NCBI GenBank assembly: GCA_007922195.1
Contig: ML681990.1
Span: 41,260,942-41,324,941, forward strand
From: Podocnemis expansa
Lineage: Eukaryota > Chordata > Testudines > Podocnemididae
Direction: 5' to 3'
Length of the DNA: 64,000 nt
Shown here: positions 1 to 49,573 of the stretch, piece by piece
Position numbering within the stretch: the stretch's first letter is position 1
How the letters are laid out: each line of letters begins with the position of its first letter
Notes under the pieces: generated by a model
Told to the model about the DNA's origin: nothing
Database searches by the model: none
Seen by the model: the letters and a program-made list of their open reading frames with translations, nothing else
Made by a program: the position numbers and the translations under genes

Positions 1-305
1 CAGCCCCCTTTCTGGGGCTGTGGGACAGCCCTCAACACCCTGGCCAGGGTGCTGAGGGTCAAATGTTGTTTCAGAACACTTTGTTCCAAAACAACATGTC
101 CCAACGGGGTTGTTTCGAAACAACGCCTTTCGAAACAACGTTGTTTCGAAAGGGAATGGGGTTTAAGTTGTTTCGAAACACCGCCGTTGTTTCAAAACAA
201 TGGAACCTGTTTTTTCAAAACAATGGTACGTCATGTCAACATGGCATTTCTTATTTTGAAACAACCTCTGTTGTTTTGAAATAAGAAGTGTGTGTGAACA
301 TACCC
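1..305. mobile_element. MITE with palindromic TTCGAA body (left end beyond window)
   Basis: The body is packed with self-complementary units such as GTTGTTTCGAAACAAC at 109-124 and decayed versions where TTCGAA has become TTCAAA or TTTGAA. The right end reads GTGTGAACATACCC at about 292-305, a diverged form of the GTGTAGACATACCC end of other MITEs in this window. Bases 1-60 are a GC-rich core. The left inverted repeat lies outside the window. It directly abuts a family-A LTR and probably inserted into it. Confidence 0.6.
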
Positions 306-1030
306 AGTGGGGCTAGCTAAATGACTGTAGCACCTCAGCCCATGAATAGGGGGAGGGGCATCTGTGTTTGAAAACAAACACAGATGCTTTGTTGGGGAGA
401 ATCTGCTTGCTATGGACAGAAAAATACCATCTTAGAAGCAACTGCAAGATACTGAGCCTATCCACATGGCCAAGATGGCCTGAGCTGGCTGAACAACACC
501 AATAGTTAATATTGTGGGTAAGAATTAGGAGAACAGATTAAAGAGCAATCTTGGAATAATGTCAGTAGACTAGCATGCGTTTTATATCTTTTACTTGGTA
601 GTAGTAACTCCTTTATTAAATGATTGTGTATTGATTTACTATGTATTCACTTAAAATCATAATCAATGAATTAGGTTTTATCTAAAGGTGTGTGGACTTT
701 AGAAGTGTGAATCAGAGTGGCTGAGTCAATCCATTTCTATGACAAATGGACAGATGTGAGTCTACGGTGATTGGGGGTGGGTCCCAATCTCTGTAGGATG
801 GGAGTTCCCAGTATAGTGTCTGGGGAACAGGGTTGCTGAATTGGGAACAGTCTCACAGGTGGCCAGAGAGTGCACACACACTGCCTGGGACCAATTACAT
901 GCAGGAGGCTAGCGTGGATTGACTCAGGAGTGAGTGGCCACCTGGCAAAGTGAGGTAAACCAGAGCTCAGGAGTGGAGATTATGGGTCAAAGTGGCACAC
1001 CAGACCAGATTCTCGGAGCAGCCTGTCACA
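306..1030 (+). mobile_element. Partial LTR, family A, copy 1
   Basis: Homologous to the complete solo LTR at 30604-31822. Shared stretches include CTAGCTAAAT near its left edge, CCTATCCACATGG at about 458-470, and a final part with TCCCAATC, CTGTAGGATGG and ACCAGACCAG. It ends ...CCTGTCACA at 1030, matching the TGTCACA end of the complete copy. The 5' part is missing or displaced beyond the MITE at 1-305. No protein is encoded. Identity as an LTR rests on the complete copy, which has TG...CA ends and a 5-bp duplication. Confidence 0.65.
358..387. repeat. Perfect 13-bp hairpin with AAAA loop
   Basis: GCATCTGTGTTTG (358-370) is followed by AAAA and its exact complement (375-387). The corresponding part of the sibling LTR at 30604-31822 has no such hairpin, so it is specific to this copy. 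Confidence 0.8.
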
Positions 1031-1856
1031 AGGAGGCAAAATGACTCTGTCCAGAGACATTTCTGTGAAAAAGCAGCAGGAGAGGGAATAATGGGATGCC
1101 AGCACACTCAGAAAGGATGTGTATATGTGAGTTCCACTGAGAAACTTGCTTCAGTAGGAATGAGAATGAGGCACCAATGGAAGTACTATTGGTACTAGCT
1201 TCTGTAAGGGCTGGTGTTGAGCTGAACCAGACTGGGATCCCTGTATGGGGTCACCAAGGAGGAGCTAGTAGGGATTTTAGGACATGCCAGTATTTACAAG
1301 CCAGTGAGCTTAAAGTGGAAGACAGGGATTTCTATGAACATGGATAAGATGAACTACAGTATGCATTAATGTGAAAAAACTGATGTTAGGCTTCATGGCC
1401 AGGGGAGGGGGAGAGATCACTCTTTGCTATATGAATTAAAATGATAGTCGTAATTGCTTTCTATATTCATGGCATGCTCTGACATTCCCCTTAGAAACCT
1501 AACCTTAAGAAACCTTTTAAGGATGATGACCTTAAAAGATAATGCTTGCTGGAAAGGAGGAACTCTGGTTGACAGTGGCTTTGATAAGTTTGGTCATGTG
1601 CTTCTCCTGAAAAACATTTAAGCGTGTCCTTGCACAGCAGGAGCCTCCTACCAATCTGTGGGGAGTGCATCTAGAATGCAAATGCTGAGAACAAGTTATC
1701 CATAGATTGCCCCTTACAATTTTAGCTATAATTATCTCTCAATCTGATGCTGAGCAGCATTTGAAATTATGCCAAAGCTACTCCTGCTGATTCATCCACT
1801 CAGTCGAATGGAATCAAGGTGTGGAATCCACTCCCTTCTGCTTCTGTTAACAGCTT
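1031..1856. other. No recognised feature
   Basis: AT-rich, non-repetitive by eye; reading frames are short and unconvincing. It lies between a family-A LTR and the Gmr1-like element and may be old intergenic sequence. Confidence 0.5.
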
Positions 1857-2818
1857 TGTAGGTGGGTAGCTGCAGGCTGGCCCTTCCTCAGTGTCTTTAT
1901 TTGAAGGGAGGCTATACCTCTTTGCTGTCCCAGCCTTTGCACAACACCATCCTGTGGGAAAATTAATGGAAAAGGGGCCTGGCCCAAGCAGGACACACAA
2001 ATCCCAGAATCTTTAGCCCCACCAGTCCCCAGGCAGGGCAGGGCTGGTAAGGAGTCCTTAGCCCACCCAGCCAGGACCTCAACCCACCAGGGCCCCAAGC
2101 AGTATACACAGATACCAGTGGTTCATTGGCAAAAGCACCATAAAGTTAAATGCCTAGAACTACTGCTTGCCCATAAAACCAGAGCAGTATGACAAGGAAG
2201 TGGGGAGGGGGACACAGGCCCACTCAACTCCACTGCACCCCAGTCCAGGGCCCTACCATCAGTGGGGCATCACACTACTGGGTCAGCAGGGCTCCAGCCG
2301 CAACATACTGCCTCTGGCCTCACTGGGGCACAATCTGCCCACAGGAGGGTTCCCTGGGGCACTTCGTCCTTCTGTCGGCAAAGCTAGCCTGTGTTCTGGG
2401 GCTCAGTAATGCCCCTCCTGATACTCTGCAAGCAGCAAAGCACACAGACCATTGGTGGCTTCTGTAGCTGAGAGCTCCTTGAGGTCTGGGTCTGAAGGCA
2501 GCTCTAGTAGTTTCCCCAGGTCTTCTCCTACAGGGAATTCTAGTAATTCCCTTGGCTCTGTGCCTGCCCAAATTCTGGGTAGTTCATCTCTGAGAAGGTT
2601 GGAGTCCTCAGCAGAATGTGGCTCAGGCAGCAGACCAAACATGTCCAGCTCCTTTAGCAGCTTGCTCCAGACTCAGACTTCAGGCCTGCCCTTTTTATTT
2701 CCTGTTTCTGCTTTGACTCTGATCTTCTGCTTCCATGTCCTGGGCCAGGAAGTTCCCAGCTCTGTCCAATGGGGAGAGTGCAGCCCTCCCTCAGCATCCT
2801 GCTCAGAGGGAAGTCACA
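1857..2818 (-). repeat. 3' LTR of the Gmr1-like element
   Basis: On the minus strand it starts TGTGACTTCC at 2818 and ends ...CCTACA at 1857, the TG...CA signature. The part 1857-2474 aligns with 8134-8636, for example around CCTCTTTGCTGT and CAGCCTTTGCACAA. The upstream half also resembles the solo LTR at 48515-49573. Minus-strand frame 2642-2403 encodes an acidic repetitive peptide (see Findings). Confidence 0.8.
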
Positions 2819-2827
2819 CCTCTTTGC
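2819..2827 (-). promoter_or_regulatory. Polypurine tract
   Basis: The minus strand reads GCAAAGAGG immediately before the TG of the 3' LTR, as expected for the plus-strand DNA primer of an LTR retrotransposon. Confidence 0.6.
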
Positions 2828-2910
2828 TACACATGCACCTCTGAAGTCCAGCTCTCGGTTTCTGGAGCTGGCCCTGACTCCTTTCCCTGTGCACAACATG
2901 GCATCTGCAT

Positions 2911-3405
2911 TTACATGGTCTTTACTGGCCTCACAAGGTGGTCCTTACCGCCCCAGTGTTGAATAGTGTACACAAAGGGTTGCATGGCAAGGGGCAAGGT
3001 ACCACTGCAGCAACCAGGCATTGGTATCCTTTGTTTGTTGTAACCACCAGTGAAGGTGCATGGTTGGTGATAACCACAAAGGGGCATCCCAGGAAGTAAT
3101 GTCTTAAGACCCTCCACCACCCATTTCACAGCCAAAGCCTCCTTCTCAACTGTCACGTACTTCTGCTGCCAGGGGAATGATTTGCAGTTAATGAAAAGGA
3201 CCGAGTGTTCCTCGCCACCCATGTCCTGCGTGAGGACGGGCCCCAGTCCTATGGCCAAGGTGCCTGTCAGTAAGAGGAAGTGGCAATAGAAATCAGAGCT
3301 GTAGGGAACCAGACCTGACAGAGCCTTGAAGACTTCCTTGCAACCCACTGTCCATCATGCATGCAGCTGCTGATCCTTTGTCAATGGGTCCATGAAGGGA
3401 GTGGC
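2911..3405 (-). pseudogene. RNase H domain of pol (degenerate)
   Basis: The Ty3/gypsy RNase H would degrade template RNA during reverse transcription. The frame 3348-2911 carries the hallmark TVEKEALAVKW with the conserved Glu and a preceding segment where family members have a TDAS motif. Here the first catalytic Asp codon is GGC (Gly) at 3262-3264. A final HWGGKDH segment corresponds to the family's C-terminal HRxGxxH region. The sequence between RT and this domain resumes at about 3405, just past the inserted LTR at 3411-4427. No integrase follows it, and the polypurine tract and LTR come next, so RNase H is the last pol domain. It is non-functional because of frame breaks and the lost Asp. 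Confidence 0.78.
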
Positions 3406-3410
3406 AGTGG

Positions 3411-4427
3411 TGTGACAGGATGCTCCCCAGATCCAATCCGGTGTGCTGCTGTGACCTCCCAATTCCCAATCCTGAACGCCACTTCATCTCACTTTGCCAA
3501 GTGACTACTCACTCCTGAGTCAATCCACTCTGGCCTCTGGCGTGCAATCAGTCCCAAGCAGTGAGTGTACACTCTCTGACTACTCAAGGACAGTCCCACT
3601 GCAAGCACCCCTGGGCCCAGTTACCACATCAAGAGCCACTGTCTACAGAGATTGAGGTACACTCCCAAGCACAATACACCTGTCTGTCCATTTCACAAAA
3701 AAATGGATTGTGCCCAGCCTTCTTAACTCACACCCTCTAAAGACCACACAGCTTTAGATAAAACAACTACTAGTTTATTGATCAGTTTATAATTCTAAGT
3801 AAGAATATGGCCAGTCATTGCAGAATCACACTATAAATGAGTCAGGAGTGACCACAAGGAAATAAAAGGTAAAACACACATACTAACCTAACATCTCTAC
3901 TTAAACTGACCTCATAGTTCAGGTTCATGCTCAGGGTGTTCAGCTGCCAAATGTTTGTACAGCCAGTTTCTGCCTGAGACCAGGCAGGACCCACATCTTA
4001 GTTAGAGTTGTTTCAAGATTGGAGAGGCCCAGGCCAAAAGCTCTAAATCCCTCCAAGTGTCTTTCTCTGTTCCAAAAACCTGCTCTGACCCCTCCCTTTC
4101 TGGGCAGTGGTGATATCTTTGTCTTATCTGAGCCAAGGAACTTAATTAGCATAGCTTTGTCACCTCCAGATGCCCACCTGCTGGCTGTTGGAAGAGAGCT
4201 CTGTCTGTCTCGCATCCCCCCCGAGCTGAATATGCTACATGTCTATGCACGTGCATGAAGTTGTAGGAAATATGATATCATGCCAATCATGTACAATAGG
4301 TTGTGAGCATCTATAAAGAAACATCGCACGGTGTAATTGGCAACAGATCATACAATCACAGTGTATAAGTGAGCTGAAAAATCATATAGATTATAACCCA
4401 GGGTACACAGATGTGCATCCTTTGACA
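3411..4427 (-). mobile_element. Solo LTR, family A, copy 4, inserted in pol
   Basis: On the minus strand it starts TGTCAAAGGATGCACATC at 4427 and ends ...CCTGTCACA at 3411. It shares a long stretch with copy 1, including GTGGATTGACTCAGGAGTGA. It falls exactly where the pol reading breaks: RT ends with VPNFPTL just above 4427 and the RT-RNase H linker resumes below 3411. The flanks 4428-4432 (CCTTA on minus) and 3406-3410 (CCACT on minus) could be a decayed 5-bp duplication. The interruption of a protein by this copy confirms that it is a separate, later insertion. Confidence 0.75.
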
Positions 4428-5341
4428 TAAGGTAGGAAAGTTAGGTACAAAGTGCCAATAGTATCTATCCAACCCTAGGAACTGCTGCACTTGCTTCTTG
4501 ATGACCAGCGCCAGGTACTCTTGAAGAGTCTCTGCACATTCCCAACCAAAGGTTGCAGGTTCCCCCTGCCCAGTGTATTGCCAAGGTAGGTGGTCTCCCA
4601 CCACCCTATGCAACACTTCTTTGAATTTGCAGTTAGGCCAGCATCCCATAGGGTTGTCAGGACCACAGCAACCTGGGAAAGGCGTTCTTCCCTATGACGT
4701 CATCTAAATAGGTAGTAGCATATGCTAGGTGGAACAACAGGGGTCAATCCATGAGGCCCTGGAACATCGTGGGAGCTCCATGGAAGCTGAACAGTAGCTA
4801 GATAAACTGGTACAGTCTACTGGACTTGACAAAGACAGTCTTTTCCCTTGACTTTGGTTCAAGGAAGATCTGCCAGTACCCCTTTGTGAGGTCCAAGATG
4901 GTGAAATACTGGGACTCTACAAGATGGTCAGGCAGTTCATCAGCCTGGGGCATGGGATAGGCATTAAATTTCTAAATGGTTCTAAATGGTATTTACCTAG
5001 CAGAAGTCGATACAAAAGTGGCATGACAAGCACTATTGGGCTATGCTACTCGCTGGCCCTTGGCTCAGTCACCCCCCACTCTAGCATTTCCTGAACCTCT
5101 CATTCAATCACCATTTGGTTGCTATGTGGACAACCTCTCTCAGGGGGTCTAAATATCATGGTGCACCGCGATGGTCTCTCTGGGCAATGCCGGTAAAGGT
5201 TTGGGCAAAGGCCTCCAAGAGGTATTTGCCCTGTTGCCTCTGTTTTCCAGTAAGATTATCACTCAATGAGTGCTTGCCCACATCAGTTGCATCTGCAACT
5301 TGTGGCCCAAGGTCCAGATCAGAAGGATACAGGGCAATCAT
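4428..5341 (-). pseudogene. Reverse transcriptase domain of pol (degenerate)
   Basis: Would copy the element RNA into DNA. The catalytic box TTYLDDVI is intact at 4692-4716, with YLDD exactly at 4699-4710. Downstream on the minus strand is the thumb and connection part, with LTAN..KC at about 4625 and FLGLDRYYWHFVPNF at about 4490-4440, a strong Ty3/gypsy signature. The upstream frame 5341-5156 holds the linker with YLLEAFAQTFTG, typical of the region just before RT. Several frameshifts and stops separate these blocks. The domain lies downstream of integrase, which is the unusual order. Confidence 0.8.
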
Positions 5342-5599
5342 GAGTCCCTCTATCTAATGCCAAGGTTTCAGCAGCTTAATGTGATACACCTGCCTTTTCT
5401 TCCTTGGGTCAGGTTGCCAAATTTCAAAGTTCACAGGACCCATCTGTTGAATGCGCTCACAGGGGCCTTGCCACCAGTTAGGATTTGGTCAATGAGAGCA
5501 ATACCAGGACCTTGTCACCAGATCAAAGATCCAGGTCCACATGCCTAATTATAGGTCCACAGCAGGGTAGCTTGTGCATCCTGGCAGTTTGTGCAGGCC

Positions 5600-6480
5600 A
5601 GGGTTCTCACCTGTCTCAGGGAATCTTGGAGCCCCTTGACATATTACAGACAATCTCTGGTGCGAGACAGCATCTGTTCCCAAGTCTTGCATACGAGGTC
5701 CAGTATGCCTCTGCGCTATCAGCCATAAAGGAGCTCAAAGGGAGAGAATCAGGTTGAGGAGTGGGGTACCTCATTGACTGCAATGAGAAGGGGAGAGGCG
5801 GGGAATCAATTGGACCTACCACAAAAGGTCCTCTGAAGAGAAGTTCCTCAGGCCAGTGTACCCTTGAGGGTCTAGTTAAATCTCTCAACTAACCCATCAG
5901 TCTGCAGCTGGTATGCTGATGTCCAGATTTTCTTGATGCCAATGATCTCACATACTTCCCAAAGAAGATGAAATTAGTCTCCTGGTCCAAAAACAATTCT
6001 TGGGACAACCCCGTCCCTGCAAAGACCTTCAGGAGTTCCCCAGTGATGGTCTGGGCCCTTGTGTTCTTCAACAGGGTGGCCTCAGGCAAGTGGGTGGCAT
6101 AGTCCACAATAACCAAGAGGTAGCAAAAGCTGTCTACACTCCTCCCTGGGAGCCAACCAGGTCAACAGAGACTAATTCAAAGGATGTCCCAACCAATGGG
6201 ACTCAAGGCACGCTGGCCAGCACAGCTCACTGGCACTCCAGACATGATGCACAGTAGTCCTTGACCTCTTGATATACCTCAGGCCAAAACAACCATGCCA
6301 GAATGCAGGCCAATATCTTGTCCATGCTCAGGTACTCCATCGCCAGGAAATCATGTGCCAGATGCATCACCCTTCTGTGATGAAGCTGGGGCACCAGCAG
6401 CTGGGCTCAAGCCTCCTGGGTGACGGAGTCCCATCTGAGTCAGTAGAGTCTGTCCTGCTACAATTCAAATCATCTCCATT
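5600..6480 (-). pseudogene. Integrase domain of pol (degenerate), upstream of RT
   Basis: Would insert the cDNA into the genome. The core frame 6116-5889 begins VIVDYATHLPEATLL and contains FLDQETNF. These hold the first two catalytic Asp residues, codons 6102-6104 and 5985-5987. Below it, remnants of the HPQTDGLVERFN-type region (5890-5910, broken by a frameshift) and a PFSL..MRYPTPQ segment at about 5800-5750 match the end of the core. Cys-containing remnants near 6240 correspond to the HHCC zinc region. Integrase is closer to gag than RT is, unlike ordinary gypsy elements and retroviruses. Confidence 0.8.
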
Positions 6481-6899
6481 GGGTGGCCTGCTAGGGGTCC
6501 ATCACGACCCCGTTTACCACAGCTAACTGGATGTAGGCCCAGCTAAGAGTAGGATGTTATCTTTGCTCTTGGCAAAAGTCAGATATGGGTTCCTCAAAAC
6601 TGTCCCTGCTGTCCCTTGTATGGTCTGCCATTTCCTTGGGACTGACAAGAGGTGCTCTACTCAGGATGTCTTATCTGGGGTGGATCCTTCTTCCAGGGCC
6701 ATCCCCACTGGGACACCTTGGTGACCCACAGTCCATAGCACATCTGCAAAAGCAGTCCAGTCCCTCACAAAAATCACAGGATAGAGAAGTCAGGCATCCA
6801 GACTCACTGGGAGCACATGGTCACCTCCTTGACGGTCAAGATGACGGGGAGTTTTGGGTATGTCCTCAAGTCTCCATATATATATCAAAACCCAATCTG

Positions 6900-6980
6900 C
6901 CCAAGGATGTGGCCATCTTCAGGGACTAACTCCCTAAAGATGAGGGTCTGCCCATACCCTGAGTTGCCCAGGGCCTGCAC
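6900..6980 (-). pseudogene. Aspartic protease active-site region (Asp changed to Asn)
   Basis: Retrotransposon protease, which would cleave Gag and Pol. The minus-strand frame at 6980-6926 reads VQALGNSGYGQTLIFREL, the ALxDSGxxxTLI active-site region of retropepsins. The catalytic Asp codon is AAC (Asn) at 6963-6965. The flap region below 6900 is broken by stops. It sits between the zinc knuckle and integrase, as expected. Confidence 0.7.
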
Positions 6981-7084
6981 ATATCTTCAAGCAAAGTACA
7001 CCTGTACAGCAATCTTCAGGGTGGATCACTCCCATGCCTGTCCTTCCTCAGCATAGACAAGGACAAAATTTAAAGTCCATCACC

Positions 7085-8059
7085 CAGTACTGACATCGGA
7101 GGTGTCCTATTTGGCCACAGGTGAAGCAATGCCCTACCCTGGCTGAAGTAGCCCAGTCCGTTGTTCCTTGGAGATGATTTTGGGAGTTCTGCAGATTGAG
7201 CTGGCCTTCCTTTGCTTGCCTGAGTGGCTGGGCAGTGAGGTGGCTGCAACCCAAGGTGGACTGGAGTAGACTGGACTCAGGGAGGGGCACAGGGTTGACC
7301 CACCCAGAGGGCTCCTACTGAGGCCAGGTGAGGTCAGTTCTTCCATCAGTTACACTGCCTGGCTCAAAGTGGTGGGGCTGTGCTGCATCACCCAGTTATT
7401 TCTGTAGGCTGGCAGGATATGTAGGAACTGTTCCACCACTATCTGTTTTGTCAGACTGATGGTGGAGCAGATCTCTGGTTGCAGCCACCACTGGCAAGTG
7501 TCTCTGAGTTCTTGGGCCACGGCCAAGGACCTAGCCCCAGGGAGGGTGCAGAATGTTTTCCTCCAGAACTGGTGCTAAAATGTTTTGGGACTGATGTCTA
7601 GCACATCGATGATGACAGCCTTCATGAACCAGTAATCCCAGGCCTCATCATCCAGGAGTGCCTGGTAGGCAGTCTGAGGAATCCCACGTAGGTGGGGGGA
7701 GCCAAAAGAGTGACCTGCTGCTCTGGAGTCCAACCTGCGGTGGATGCAATACATTCAAAGGTGGTCAGTAAAGCTTTGAGATTGTCACATGCACCCAGCT
7801 TTTTGATGTAAAGTAAAAATGGAGTGGGGCCAGTAGTGGGTGCCCCAGAGTCTGCCATAAAGGCTGAGCTGGGCAGCACGGTACCTAATTGCTGGGCATA
7901 TTGTTGCTGGTCCTGCTTCTGGGCTCCCAGCTCACAAACTAGTTTCTGCTGCTGTGCCCCCAGAGTCTGGAGCAGCTGTTGTTGCTGTTGCAGCTGGGTG
8001 GCATGCTTCTGTTCCTGCATCTCAGTCCACTGGGTTATACATTTGTTCAGATCCATCAT
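7085..8059 (-). pseudogene. gag with coiled N-terminus, SCAN-like segment and zinc knuckle (degenerate)
   Basis: Gag forms the particle and binds RNA. The start codon at 8059 opens a Gln-rich, coiled-coil-like N-terminus (residues about 15-60). Then comes a segment with CDNLKALLTTFE and TPEQQVTLLAP, typical of Gmr1-like Gag. After a frameshift near 7675 the frame continues with AYQALLDDEAWDYW and, at about 7512-7345, LRDTC..WLQPE, VVEQFLHILP and a final WV..H.P block. This order and spacing match the SCAN domain. TAG near 7575 and TAA near 7352 interrupt it. A CCHC knuckle at 7128-7093 (CFTCGQIGHLRC) has only two residues between His and the last Cys where four are usual. Confidence 0.75.
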
Positions 8060-8133
8060 TCTCCTGGTTTGGTGTCTTGGTCAGCATCCCCTTTGTCATC
8101 AAGAAATGATGAATATATGCATTCTCTATCATA

Positions 8134-8640
8134 TGTAGGCAGGTGGCTGCAGATTGGCCCTCCCACGGCATCCCAGTTGGAGGGACTCCACACCTCTTTG
8201 CTGTTCCAGCCTTTGCACAATACCGTCCTCTAGGGAAAACAGCAGAAAAAGAGGATCAGCCCAAGCAGGGCAGGCAAGTCCCAGAGTCTTCAGCCCCTGG
8301 CCACCAGGTGGGGTAGGGCTGGTAAACACATAGATTCATTACTGTTTACTTGTAAACCCAGGGTGGCATGACAGGGATGGAGAGGAGGACACAGGTCTGC
8401 CCAGCTCCACTGTGTTCCAGCCCAAGGCCTTGACTTGCCACTGGTTCAGTAGCGCTCCATCTGCAACACACCAGCTCTGGCCCCATTGGGGCAAAGTCCT
8501 CCCACAGTCAGGTTCCCGGGGCCACTTCCTCCTTCAGCCTCCAAGGGACCCCTGTGTTCTGGAGCTCAATAGTACTCCTCTGGGTACTCTGCAAGCAGCA
8601 CACCACACAATCCAGCTGAGGATTCTGCAGTCAGGAGCCG
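8134..8640 (-). repeat. 5' LTR of the Gmr1-like element, truncated
   Basis: Aligns with 1857-2474. On the minus strand it ends ...CTACA at 8134. Homology fades at about 8636-8640, so the U3 start is missing and no target duplication can be scored for the whole element. A frame ending GVLLAEYPEEYY (about 8605-8570) matches the peptide end seen in the other two LTR copies. Confidence 0.75.
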
Positions 8641-9116
8641 ACAGAGAGGCAATAATCTTGTGTGGAAGGTTCACTGCAGTAATCTAGCCCAGGCTAGACT
8701 GACAGTCATAACGTCATCCAATAGGAGCAGTAAAGAGTCATTCCTTTCTGTGGTACAAAGACCCTGGCCTAGCCATCTCAGAGCAGGAACAAAGAACTGA
8801 GTCAACAGTGGTGCTACTTGCTTGTCCTACATAGATGCTCTTACTGGGTGAACCCACCTTTGCTGAGCAGAGTCCTACAAGTCCTGTTACTAATCAGCTG
8901 TACAGGTTTACCCAATTCCAGTGATGAGATTTATTGAGCATGAGTACTAATCCCTGCCAAGAGTATAATAAATACATTGGACATGATCCTTAGCTGATGT
9001 AAATCAGCATGAACCCATTGATTTCAATTGAATATGACAATATATACCAGCTAAGGGGATATATTTCATGGCTAAAATGTCTTTACTGTTCTATGTGGAA
9101 GGAAATAGGAGTCTCA
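8641..9116. other. Intergenic; one old palindromic repeat
   Basis: Nothing coding is seen. 8979-9055 (TTAGCTGATGTAAATCAGC onward, with TTGATTTCAA in the middle) belongs to the old self-complementary repeats found elsewhere in this window. Confidence 0.5.
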
Positions 9117-9559
9117 GGCTACGTCTATACCAAAAACCTTAGTTCGGACTTGCTTAGTCCAAACTCAGTAGTTTGAAGTTAGCTCAAAATAAATGCAGTT
9201 TTTTAGTTTGAAGTAGCCACCCTTTTTTTTAGTTCAAACTAACTTTTAAGTTTGAACTAAAACAAAGCAGCAAGTTCAAACTGAAAGTTAGTTCAAACTA
9301 AAAAAAATGTTAAGTTCAAACTAACTGCTAGTTCGAACTTTTTAATTTGAACGACCATATCTACATGGGGCTAGTTTGAACTAAATATGCAAATTAGTTT
9401 GAACTAGGCAGTTAGTTTAGACTAACCAGGAGAACTAAGTAGTTCAAACTAAGCTAAATTCTTTTTTTAGTTCGATTGGCAAAGCCTAATGTAGACAGTG
9501 TTCAAATTAGTTTGAATTAAGGCTCTTTAGTTTCAACTAATTTGCTGGTGTAGACATAA
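9117..9559. mobile_element. MITE with AGTTCGAACT-type palindromic body
   Basis: The ends are imperfect inverted repeats: ACGTCTATACCA at the left, and the right end reads as TATGTCTACACCA on the complement. The interior is almost entirely variants of AGTTYRAACT, mostly with TTCGAA decayed to TTTGAA or TTCAAA. No coding capacity. Confidence 0.75.
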
Positions 9560-12280
9560 CTTCAGTCTCTTGAATTTACCTTGTCTCATTGCCACTTTGA
9601 CGGCAGCAAGGGGTCAAGAAAAAGAGGATCCCCTAATTGTAAAAAATGCATCTAATCAAAGTAAAGGAAATGAAAGCTCATTACAGATTGTTTCACTGAT
9701 GAAGAGTGAGCAAAAATCTAAAGCTGAACACTCACATCACATTTGTAAGCTGAACTGTAAAAATATAAACCAACAAATAAAACATAAATCTTTCTGATTT
9801 TCATGAAAAGAAAAGAAAATGTGGCCAAGTTCAATCCCTTGTGTACAACACCAACAACATCAGGGAAATTACTTCATGAAGAAATTTGCCTCACAGCATA
9901 TACAGCATATATATATGTCACATGGTCTAATCATAGGAATGAAAGCAACATAGGAATTATGTGGTCTATTCAAGCCTGTAAGGAGTGTGAACAAAGAATG
10001 TAATTACACATCAAGCCCATTGATTAACCAATTACTAGTTAAAGCAGATTTAGACTTTAAATTAATTTGGTTCTGAATTCTAGGGATTTTTGGACTAAGA
10101 TAAACAGTGTTTGAAGATTAATTATCCTTGTCTAAGATGAAGGAGCTCATTTCAATTTTGTTAGCATGTGGAAAGACTCTGGATGGTGCAAAGAACGTGG
10201 CAAACTGCAAGTCTCAGCAGTATTGAAATGCTTGATTAAAACAAGTTCTGAGACTCAATCATTTTAATCCTCACACAGAGTAGGGATATTGTAGGCTACA
10301 ATATGCAATTCCAAATTAATATTTAAATGAAAGACAGACTTAAGTTTACCTAGAGGAAAACGTGTGCTGTCTCCAAAAGATTCCATGGCAGTATAGTCAG
10401 GGAGTTAGAAACTGACCAGCAATGAAACACTGGAGCAGAGCTCTTTGTGCATGATTGACCAAATAATAATTAATAAAGAATTTAAAAGAACTGCCAGCCA
10501 TGGTGATTTCTGCTTTTATTTCATAAAGAAATACAAGATAGTGTCGGGCTGGTAGAAATATAGATATAAACCCCACTAATGGATTACAAGGCATTTTATA
10601 TCTAGGCCACTGGTTCAAATCCAATCTAAAATAGGTAATTGCTGAAACATTTCACCATTGATAGCTGTTTGGTAGCCCAAATTGCTTTGCCACAAAGTGT
10701 GCCTGAGAGAGTCAACATGCTTCCCAAAGCTCTCTGGGGTGCAAGGGAAGGACTGCGCTCCCCTCCATGCACAGCCAGTTCTGTTGATCACCCCAAGTTC
10801 CTGTGTACTTTTTACTGCCCTTCCCCCCACACACTTCTTGGAAAACTGGCGCCCACGAAGATCAGTGGGGAGCACTCAAGTTAGCACTAGGACTGAAGCT
10901 ATGCTTGGTCCCTGTACAGGAATGCAGATACAGGAAGGAAGGCTCCCCCTTGTACACCAGTAGCACCTATAGCTGTATGTAGTTGATGCACAGTCCATAC
11001 CAGTAGTAGTGGTACCAAGTAGAGGAAAAGCAGCCTTAGCTATCACACTGCCCACTCAGGTATGGTCTTGCAGATCTTCTATCATTGAACAGGAGCCATG
11101 GGAACAAGCCTGAGCAGCACTGTGGCCCTTATGAACCAGATCACAATGCCATTCAGTTTTGATCCTTCTGCCACCCTTTCCCCGTACTCCATTATGATGG
11201 AAGGCTGCTGGACCAACCCTGAGCAGGCAGTGGGGTAGTTAACACTACTCTCTACACCACTGTCATAGGGACCAGCTCTTGTACAAGGGCCCCCCTCCGT
11301 TCAACAGCCCAATCCACTCTGCTCTGCCCACAGAACTCACTCAGCAATAGTTACAAGCCTGGCTTATCAGTATGAGGGGAGCATCCATGAGCGCCTGCAC
11401 AAGCGAGTTGGCAGAAGAGGAGGTTGGTGTAATCTGTGCAGACTTTCTGAAGAAACCCTTACCAGACTTGATCAGCAGCTGTTTAAGAAACGTGGGCCCA
11501 CTCACTGCTCCAAGTTCCAGCCCAGGGACCCTACAACCAGCAGTTACGGTCCCCACTATCCTAACCTTGCTACTATTTCCCTAGCTATTGTGCCTTTCTC
11601 AGAGACTTCTTCCACCCTCCTCTAAGTACACCCTTTCCTAGGGCCAAGTCTTTTACTCTCCTGCTGATTTCCCACATTTCTTCTCTAAGCCTAGAGAGTG
11701 ACTGGAGGCCTCCACACTACAGCCTCTTTCTGCTGCCAACTTCCTACCTTCATCATAACCATGTCTGTTTCTTCTCAGGTAGGTTATACTCCCAGTCAGG
11801 GCTTGCTTATCACACCTAATTCTGCACAGATATAGCCTATCAAGGCAATCCTGCCCCTTCTCCACTTCATTAACCTGTTTAAGGCTGGTGTGGAGTGAAC
11901 ACCTCATTGTAACGTGATGGAAAGGATTTTGATAGTATGCTAAGCAAGGATATTCTTCTATCCTGCCTTATTTGGTAGGCAATCCAAATCCTACTTAAGC
12001 TCATAAATTTTCATCTATGGACTGGCAACTGTAATCAGCAAAATTACCAAACTCTCATTTAAGAAACTCAGAAGTCAGGGTAATCACACTGTAACTGAAA
12101 TGTTAGAGGTAATTCCAAACCTGTCTCTTGAGGTCTGATTCCTTATCAGGTAACTAAAAATCAGCAGAAGTCATTGTTTCACTAAAATGCCAAGCCATGT
12201 TTAGTGAGCAGCGTGTGACAGCTGGGGTTGGGAATAGCAGTTTATAAGGGAGAGAGACAGAGAGGAAAGAAACTGTGTTA
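9560..12280. other. No recognised feature
   Basis: AT-rich intergenic or intronic sequence. Frames of 65-95 codons occur at chance level, with no domain signature, splice-site context or codon bias. 10840-11600 is somewhat richer in C but otherwise plain. Confidence 0.5.
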
Positions 12281-26987: not shown

Positions 26988-27063
26988 CTCCTCATTACAT
27001 CTTAAAATGCTACTGAAAGGCAGAATCCTGCCTTTTAGTAGCATTTTAAGATCGAATGAGGAG
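26988..27063. repeat. 36-bp near-perfect inverted repeat, 4-nt loop
   Basis: The left arm 26988-27023 (CTCCTCATTACATCTTAAAA...) pairs with the right arm 27028-27063 at 33 of 36 positions around the loop AATC. No inverted-repeat element ends or target duplication are obvious. It could be a palindromic mini-element or a transcribed hairpin. It lies 7 bases from an (AC)n tract. Confidence 0.85.
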
Positions 27064-30603: not shown

Positions 30604-31822
30604 TGTGATGTGCAGAATCCTCCACACTGCTGTAATGTGACCCATGTATCCTTCCTGTTCACCCTTGCAATGTGATAGTGTGGTTTAATGCAAAATATGT
30701 CAGGTGAGGCATTTTTGTTAATGTTCATGCTCTACATTATTATTATGGTAGCTTGTTTCCTGCAACATCATATATGTGTACAGATATGAAAACCCTTGCC
30801 AAAGGTATTTCACATGGTTCAAGTAGGAGCAAGTAATCAGGACTGCAAATACACATCCAGAACAAATATGTATAACAATGGACTAGCTAAATATTTGTAG
30901 GGGAGATCACCTGCTCTTTCTGAACAAAGTGAATCACCTGACCACAAGGAGGAGGAGGGAAGGGTGTTTGAAGTGAGAGAGAAAGGAAACAAAGACACTT
31001 TTAACTGGCTTTTTGCCAGAGGAACGCCATCTTGAAGTAACTCAGAAAATACTGATACCTATCCACATGGGCAGAAGGACCTGGCTGCAAAACCATCAGT
31101 AGCCAGGCACATGGGTAAGCTTGAAATGGACTGCAACCGTGAACTTTAGCTTAGAATGCGTGTTTCCTTTTATTTGGTAAAACAAACAAACAAGGAGTCC
31201 TGTGGCAATTAAAGAGTAACAAATTTATTATAAAAATAAAAATAACTTTGTTAGTCTTTAAGTGCCACAGGACTCCTTTTTGTTTGTTTTACTGAACTAG
31301 ACTAACATGGCTACCACTTTGGATCTTTTATTTGGTAGTAATAAAATCCTTGACTGATTGATTAATTGATTGTGCATTAATTCACCTTATAACTCACTTG
31401 GAATTATGTTTTGATCAATGAACTTATGAATGGTTTATTTAACGCAACATGAATTTTGTAAAGAGAAAGTATGAAAGCGTGAAAACCTATCTTGGAGCAA
31501 AAGTGATGCATATCAGTTGCATTGTTAAACTGATGGACTGGAGTAAATGAGCCTGCAGCAATCAGAGAAAGATCCCAATCCCTGCAGGATGGAAGTTCCT
31601 GATGTTGCATCTGGGGTCTAGGGTGCTCTCTGAAGTACTGTCCCATGTCTGGCTAGTGAGCACACTTGCACTGCAGGGGACCGATTGCATGCTGGAGGCT
31701 GGTGTGAGCTGACCCAGGAATCGGGGGTTCACCTAGCAAGGCAAGGTAAGTTAGGGCCGGGAATGGGCAATTGGGGTGGCCAAGCAGCACATCAGACCAG
31801 GTTGCAGGAGGTTAATGTCACA
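30604..31822 (+). mobile_element. Complete solo LTR, family A, copy 2
   Basis: Starts TGTGATGTGCAG and ends ...AATGTCACA, the TG...CA signature. AGGTA occurs on both sides (30599-30603 and 31823-31827), a perfect 5-bp duplication as made by retroviral and gypsy-type integrases. Removing the 146-bp SINE insertion at 31180-31325 and its duplication leaves about 1.06 kb. It has no coding capacity. Its homologues are at 306-1030, 3411-4427 (minus) and 59726-60884. It defines the family. The internal region of the parent element is not in this window. Confidence 0.82.
31180..31325 (-). mobile_element. Tail-to-tail inverted SINE insertion with one 12-bp duplication
   Basis: The right arm (31325 down to about 31240) is a SINE in minus orientation starting near its tRNA-like head (GGTAGCCATGTTAGTCTA). 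The left arm (31180-31230) is the SINE central part in plus orientation. The arms pair over roughly 50 bp. TTTTATTTGGTA flanks the whole at 31168-31179 and 31326-31337, so it entered as one event. Confidence 0.85.
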
Positions 31823-38831: not shown

Positions 38832-38948
38832 TCAAATCAAATCAAATCAAATCATAGGGCTGGAAGGGACCTCATGAGATCATCAAGTCCAACCCCCTGG
38901 GAATTGAACCCAGGACCTTCTGCATGTTAAGCAGAGGTGCTAGCTATC
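38832..38948 (-). mobile_element. CR1 LINE 3' end
   Basis: Starts with an (AAATC)n tail, then GGGCTGGAAGGGACCTCATG and CATCAAGTCCAACCCCCTGG, the complement of the CR1 3' terminus. Confidence 0.85.
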
Positions 38949-39030
38949 ATTTCACTAGCTATTAGATAAACTGATGCCTTAGCATAGAGGAGGAAGGGAT
39001 GCCCCATAAACTAGACAAATTCTGACTAGA

Positions 39031-48052: not shown

Positions 48053-48387
48053 GGGTACGTCTACCCTATGTGTTTAAGTCGACTTAAGGGCCCTTAAGTC
48101 AACTTAAACAGAGCCCTGTCTACACTGCAGGGCAATAAAGTCGACTTTAGGGTCCAGTAAAGTTGACTTTATAAGGTCCACTTATAAAGTCGACTTTACA
48201 GTTAAGTCGACTTAATAAAGTCAACTTAAGGCAATATGGAGTTACTAAGTCAACGTAATAAAGTCGACTTAATGTAGTGTAGCCTTACTAAGTCGACTTC
48301 ATTAGGTCTACTTAAAGTCATCTTTAATTAGACTTTATTAAGTCAACTTAATAAAGTCGACTTTGCTTTTATAGTGTAGACATACCC
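48053..48387. mobile_element. MITE with AAGTCGACTT palindromic body
   Basis: The left end is GGGTACGTCTACCCTATG; the right end is the complement of GGGTATGTCTACACTATA. The body is made of AAGTCGACTT units (perfect TTAAGTCGACTTAA at 48074-48087) and their AAGTCAACTT decay products. Its core word differs from those of the other MITEs. Confidence 0.85.
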
Positions 48388-48514: not shown

Positions 48515-49573
48515 TGTAAGGCTTTAGCTCATCTTGCCCTGTCCCTCAAACTCTTGCGCTATCATGGTCCAGAAGGTACTGGTCACCACACTGGGAATTA
48601 GCAAAGTTGCAGGAATCTGGGTCTCTTCTGCAGGGCCAGAAGGAGAAGCAGTCTGTCCCTCAGTAGGGCAGGTGAATGAACTGTCTCCAGCCCTCAGTGA
48701 GTGAGTCCACAGTTTATAGCCTGGCCCTGGGGCAGGCACATAAGCTATTACCACAGGCAGGGTAGGCAACTAAACAGTCTATCACCTCAGGTAGGCTTCA
48801 CAGGCTAGGATCAGGTAATTACTAAAGGGTTGTTTGGGAACTGGGATGGGGGATGCAAGCCCATCCAACTCCACTGCATCCCAGTTCAGGTCCCTATCTG
48901 TGACAGAGGGATCAGCCATGGAGTCAGTGTGGCTCCAGCCACAACGTGCTGGCTCAGACTCCAGGCACATAGCCACTGGACTGTTGACCAGCAACCCTGG
49001 ACAACTTTCTGCCCCCTCTCCTGGTGGTATCTGATCAGTGTATCCCACTCAGCCTCCTCAAAGTAATCACCCAGAGGCAGGTTACACAGTCCCTTGATGT
49101 TGTTGGGCGGTGCTAGGTCTGGTAGCTCCACAGGGTTGTCAGCAGATGGCAACTCCTCTAGGTCATAGCCTGTCAGGGGCCGGTCATCAACACTGGCTGA
49201 TGGTAGTTCTTCTAAGTTGCAGGCTGCTGGCAGAGTCCCCAGATCTCTGGCAGCAAGTTGCTCTAGGGCCTCCTCAAGGCCCCAGGCTGCAGGCAGCTCC
49301 CTTGGGTCCTCAGCAATGGGTAGGTCCTCCAGGTCCCAGGCAACTGGGAGTTCCTCAGGTGGGCAGTGGTATGCTCAGGGCTCTGGAGGGAGCAGAGGGA
49401 TATCCTTCCCTTCTGCTGGCTCAGCCCAGACTGAGCTCCTGGGCATCCCTCTTGTACTTCCTGTCTCACTCCCCTTCTTTTGGGCTTGCAGACAGGAGGC
49501 TCCTGGTTCCAGCCACCTAGGGGTGGCTCTTCCCTCTGTCCATCTCAGAGGGAGGCCCTGCTCCCTCAATACA
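48515..49573 (-). mobile_element. Complete solo LTR of the Gmr1-like family
   Basis: On the minus strand it starts TGTATTGAGG at 49573 and ends CTTACA at 48515. GTTTC flanks it on both sides (48510-48514 and 49574-49578), a perfect 5-bp duplication. It matches the 3' LTR at 1857-2818: shared GAACTGGGATGGGGGATG-like block, CCAACTCCACTGCATCCCAG, and on minus GACAGGAAGTA..AAGAGGG. A minus-strand frame of about 163 codons (49374-48886) contains LPxAxDLEE repeats (see Findings). It arose by recombination between the two LTRs of a former full element. Confidence 0.87.
49098..49370 (-). repeat. Degenerate 27-bp repeats encoding LPxAxDLEE
   Basis: On minus, units translate as LPVAWDLED, LPIAEDPRE, LPAAWGLEE, LPAACNLEE and LPSADNPVE in one frame, with longer spacers of whole codons between some. 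Equivalent but fewer units lie in the 3' LTR at about 2480-2600. Confidence 0.7.

Follow-up and report, generated by a model that had tools for sequence, protein, structure and literature searches.

A stretch of 64,000 nucleotides from the turtle Podocnemis expansa (contig ML681990.1, positions 41,260,942 to 41,324,941; hereafter the window, numbered from its first letter) carries a degraded retroelement on its minus strand. This element is very probably a long-dead copy of a Gmr1-like Ty3/gypsy long terminal repeat (LTR) retrotransposon with a SCAN-like Gag and an integrase-first Pol. Its domain order, its SCAN part and the relatives of its reverse transcriptase (RT), compared with a set that holds no named Gmr1 sequence, point to membership of the Gmr1 clade. 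An earlier, sequence-only reading had proposed a Gmr1-type element, and this proposal is supported, as the integrase-first order, the Ty3/gypsy-type enzymes and the SCAN-like Gag fit the descriptions of Gmr1 elements in excerpts of PMC8220671 and PMC4592553.

One LTR pair encloses all coding parts of the element, which follow each other on the minus strand in the order gag, protease remnant, integrase, RT and RNase H. The same order had been read from the letters, and it is borne out by Pfam matches, by the places of the motifs and by alignment to a relative, P0004 (uncharacterized protein LOC142829504 of Pelodiscus sinensis, 1075 amino acids); only the protease is reduced to a decayed remnant. 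The features, from the 5' to the 3' end of the element, are:

8134-8630, minus strand: 5' LTR, pairing with 1857-2467 (blastn; alignment)
7622-8080, minus strand: N-terminal part of gag, glutamine-rich, a stop-to-stop frame of 152 amino acids, assigned to gag by position
7353-7550, minus strand: SCAN-like capsid C-terminal part of Gag (Pfam PF02023; PDB, SCAN of ZNF24)
7093-7131, minus strand: degenerate CCHC zinc knuckle (Pfam zf-CCHC, E = 0.005, 17.3 bits, below the cut-off of 20.8)
6736-6980, minus strand: protease remnant, of which 6950-6828 aligns to P0004 residues 2-42 (41 residues; E = 1.6e-4)
6230-6397, minus strand: integrase zinc-binding (H2C2) domain (Pfam PF17921, E = 4.1e-11)
5875-6181, minus strand: integrase core (Pfam rve, E = 0.002 on the 90-amino-acid piece 6161-5889, below the cut-off; colinear with P0004)
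5357-5473, minus strand: integrase C-terminal domain (Pfam Integrase_p58_C, E = 3.8e-8)
4437-5156, minus strand: RT with YLDD box and thumb, in pieces (Pfam RVT_1, E = 4.8e-6, 26.9 bits, just below the cut-off of 29.6)
3412-4430, no strand assigned: about 1.0 kb of inserted foreign DNA that separates the RT thumb from RNase H (the P0004 alignment stops with residue 874 at 4431 and resumes with the same residue at 3411)
2938-3411, minus strand: RNase H (Pfam RT_RNaseH, E = 3e-8 on 2911-3354; P0004 residues 874-1033)
1857-2467, minus strand: 3' LTR, pairing with 8134-8630 (blastn; alignment)

Gag, Pol and the LTR pair

The Pfam SCAN match (E = 5.1e-14, 52.3 bits against a gathering cut-off of 27) covers residues 9-74 of the piece 7574-7353, and the stretch also matches the SCAN chain of zinc finger protein 24 (ZNF24) in PDB (E = 1.2e-8). 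By these scores, the SCAN segment is genuine and lies far beyond a chance match. The sequence-only reading had recognized it as SCAN-like, which stands, and had placed it at 7512-7345, which gives way to 7550-7353. The gag N-terminal part (8080-7622) has no significant Pfam match (best E = 0.18).

A profile search had been proposed as a check on the domain order. In addition to SCAN, matches above the Pfam cut-offs were obtained for RT_RNaseH, Integrase_H2C2 and Integrase_p58_C, and those to RVT_1 and rve fell below. The three motifs reported earlier are present, with VDYAT in 6128-6063, YLDD in 4716-4690 and VPNF in 4499-4437. The D, D and E regions of the integrase core, read by eye, are spread over three frames. 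The protease stretch has no Pfam match; two strings within 6736-6980 are taken by us to be protease motifs.

The LTRs were found by blastn with 1500-9000 as the query against the whole window. Two direct-repeat pieces were aligned, namely 1857-2050 with 8134-8325 (74.4% identity over 195 alignment columns) and 2161-2467 with 8340-8630 (69.7% over 307 columns). Full-length alignment of the two LTRs, of 497 bases (5') and 611 bases (3'), gave 74.0% identity over 496 sites and a Kimura two-parameter (K2P) distance of 0.33, which indicates that the insertion is old. The outer edges of the matches are 1857 and 8630. Thus, of the bounds 1857 and 8640 given by the sequence-only reading, the first holds and the second moves inward by the end of the LTR match. 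Without the nested insert, the element measures about 5.8 kb.

Relatives of the element and competing explanations

The protein search with the RT part yielded 229 candidates, of which 14 proteins (here given P numbers) matched at E <= 0.001; the named relatives are vertebrate records. In P0004, Pfam places the integrase zinc-binding domain at residues 199-256, the core at 274-369, the C-terminal domain at 515-548, RT at 669-828 and RNase H at 918-1021. By blastp with pieces of P0004, both integrase and RT were shown in 10 of the 14 relatives, and integrase comes first in all 10. The order is unreadable in three others (P0006, P0008 and P0010), which start inside RT, and P0014 has no integrase segment by blastp, its Pfam matches being protease and then RT. 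The Pfam scan covered seven of the 14 relatives: in four (P0001, P0004, P0007 and P0012) the integrase core is followed by RVT_1 and then by RNase H, P0009 has an integrase C-terminal domain ahead of RVT_1, and no integrase family was found in P0013 and P0014. For the RT stretch of P0004 (not that of the window), the best PDB matches are 4ol8 (E = 5.7e-61), which we take to be the Ty3 RT, and 7q5b, listed as Ty3-G Gag-Pol (E = 3.2e-60).

The RT tree has 16 rows, including the window, the relatives and Ty3, with no named Gmr1 reference among them. The window groups with 12 of the 14 relatives (nine integrase-first and three unreadable), apart from Ty3, P0013 and P0014, with modest support (86/84). 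A position in the Gmr1 clade had been expected from the sequence-only reading; the grouping with the 12 relatives may fit it, and the separation from Ty3 is modestly supported.

Several results weigh against the Gmr1-like assignment. Trees in which the window was held with Ty3 and P0014 (approximately unbiased test, p-AU = 0.0864), or with Ty3, P0014 and P0013 (p-AU = 0.219), were not rejected. P0013 is integrase-first by blastp, yet the 86/84 branch sets it apart from the window, on the side of Ty3, so the order alone does not mark the group of the window in the RT tree. Neither the search with the Gag/SCAN part (24 candidates) nor that with RNase H (31 candidates) returned any protein at E <= 0.001, and SCAN and an integrase-first Pol were therefore not seen jointly in a second element. 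Finally, no matching short duplication of the target site is present at the two LTR edges, and neither a primer-binding site nor a polypurine tract was recognized by eye; such marks are expected to fade at 26% LTR divergence.

One alternative is that the SCAN stretch is an exon of a host SCAN gene, a pseudogene or a domesticated gag, and not the Gag of this element. The SCAN match has the best Pfam E-value among the pieces tested and extends to host SCAN zinc-finger proteins, which, together with the failure to find a second element carrying both SCAN and an integrase-first Pol, could favor such an origin. However, the stretch follows the 5' LTR and precedes the zinc knuckle, in the place of Gag and on the same strand. 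Its open stretch has stops at both ends in its frame and the gag start lies in a different frame, so no intact protein would result. Moreover, no C2H2 zinc-finger array was seen by eye among the listed stop-to-stop frames (at least 80 amino acids in 1-12000 and at least 110 beyond), a set that was not Pfam-scanned. A host origin is accordingly highly unlikely, and nothing seen points to domestication.

Alternatively, the window may hold a Ty3/gypsy element of another clade in which the domain order changed independently. The support of only 86/84, the Ty3-side grouping that was not rejected, and the long branch of the window row, with 46% of its columns filled, leave some room for this explanation. 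Against it, the RT identity of the window is 56% to P0004 and 60% to P0001 (each over 93 amino acids), compared with 37% to P0013 and 38% to P0014 (tblastn). The same order in all 10 readable relatives and the SCAN-like Gag also argue against independent change, which is extremely unlikely. The Gmr1-like assignment is preferred over both alternatives.

A single dead copy with a nested repeat

Six of the 14 RT relatives were used as tblastn queries against the window. P0004 aligned in ten pieces, the first starting at 6950 and the last ending at 2938 in RNase H; every one of the ten keeps its place in the sequence of the protein. The junction between integrase and RT, from 5473 to 4693, is covered by these pieces except for two gaps, of 35 and 53 bases. 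Since P0004 is colinear over Pol within one protein and one LTR pair surrounds everything, this is one element rather than two joined. That two separate elements lie end to end had been named by the sequence-only reading as one of its refutations, and the order would then be an accident of insertion; the foreign repeat that separates RT from RNase H by about 1.0 kb and the missing target-site duplication would suit it, but the ordered P0004 pieces, the covered junction and the single LTR pair leave it as good as excluded.

The coding parts have decayed extensively. The frame differs at all nine steps between the ten pieces aligned to P0004, as calculated from the tblastn coordinates. Judged from its frames, the copy is dead, and no intact Gag or Pol could be made from it. 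Within the foreign insertion, 3411-3885 is an inverted match (69%) to 571-1030, with weaker matches within 31351-31791. This repeat was nested in the retrotransposon later than the element's own insertion. The three places (571-1030, 3411-3885 and 31351-31791) make up a dispersed repeat, of which the nested copy is 67-69% alike to the others.

LTR retrotransposons are transcribed from their LTRs, assemble particles from Gag, and undergo reverse transcription and integration. By analogy with these known families, a live form of the element would have been transcribed from its 5' LTR, its Gag would have assembled into particles with the SCAN-like part serving as the capsid C-terminal domain, and its Pol enzymes, with integrase ahead of RT, would have copied the RNA and inserted the DNA.

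Known systems and other features of the window

Integrase upstream of RT is given as a mark of the Gmr1 clade in an excerpt of PMC8220671, and the Gmr1 integrase order is called Ty1/copia-like in an excerpt of PMC2774666. In Ty1/copia elements, integrase likewise precedes RT (PMC8220671, same excerpt). The window element shares this order alone with Ty1/copia, whereas its RT, RNase H and integrase match Ty3/gypsy-type relatives. It has in common with the Gmr1 clade, as known from published descriptions, the LTRs, a SCAN-like Gag and enzymes of Ty3/gypsy type, with integrase placed ahead of RT and RNase H. The window copy differs in being broken at many places and in carrying a nested repeat. 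At about 5.8 kb, and with its LTRs measuring 497 and 611 bases, the element is similar in size to the four fish Gmr elements listed in an excerpt of PMC11117352, which are 6058-6465 bp long and have LTRs of 337-518 bp. P0004 has the same integrase, RT and RNase H order and is colinear along the window element, but it is an open reading frame of 1075 amino acids with no Gag family among its Pfam matches.

A striking homology has been described between the SCAN domain and the C-terminal part of the Gmr1-like gag capsid protein (PMC4592553, in an excerpt citing Emerson and Thomas 2011), and more than half of the frog Gmr elements are reported to carry SCAN (excerpt of PMC4131045). In an excerpt of PMC11011659, the capsid profiles missed human SCAN proteins, which suggests that the link between SCAN and capsid is not visible to every profile. 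The window SCAN resembles the SCAN domain (PF02023) found in ZNF24 and other vertebrate zinc-finger proteins in its above-threshold Pfam match and its match to the solved ZNF24 SCAN, but it is located in a retroelement Gag with no zinc-finger array seen alongside. Both the integrase-first order and the occurrence of a SCAN-like Gag in Gmr1-like elements have already been published, and the find is ordinary for its kind. The window copy is a further fossil that joins a SCAN-like Gag with an integrase-first Pol inside one LTR pair. It agrees with the view, expressed in the excerpt of PMC4592553, that a Gmr1-like Gag gave rise to the SCAN domain of vertebrates, and adds an example to this view rather than a new principle.

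Beyond RNase H, an 89-amino-acid open frame (2672-2403) runs across the start of the 3' LTR. A further LTR fragment from the element's family is present at 48837-48955 (73% to 2196-2314 by blastn), and beside it lies a minus-strand open frame of 162 amino acids (49374-48886) that appears by eye to be rich in acidic residues, leucine and proline; the 2672-2403 frame is of similar make-up. It is conceivable, if rather unlikely, that this Gmr1-like family once encoded, downstream of RNase H, an additional stretch rich in acidic residues, leucine and proline, which extended into the 3' LTR. In tblastn of both frames against the window, the two places were not joined at E = 0.1; the 89-amino-acid frame matched itself and the 5' LTR and nothing else. 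In Pfam, no match was obtained for either frame up to E = 1. Given these two results, the extra coding stretch stays a weak lead. Between RNase H and the 3' LTR, a 46-base stretch (2783-2828) is 78% like the 5' LTR part 8157-8202 and is possibly a scrap of another LTR.

At the Rfam gathering cut-offs, no match falls on the element, and the single match in the window, to a tRNA at 38897-38957 of the minus strand, is weak (31.3 bits, with the cut-off at 29) and may represent a short repeat derived from a tRNA. Palindromic or inverted repeats are located at 48134-48364, 31177-31292, 26988-27063 and 9223-9460, and their units include TAAAGTCGACTTAA (near 48.2 kb) and AGTTCAAACTAA (near 9.3 kb). 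These repeats may resemble small non-coding DNA transposons.

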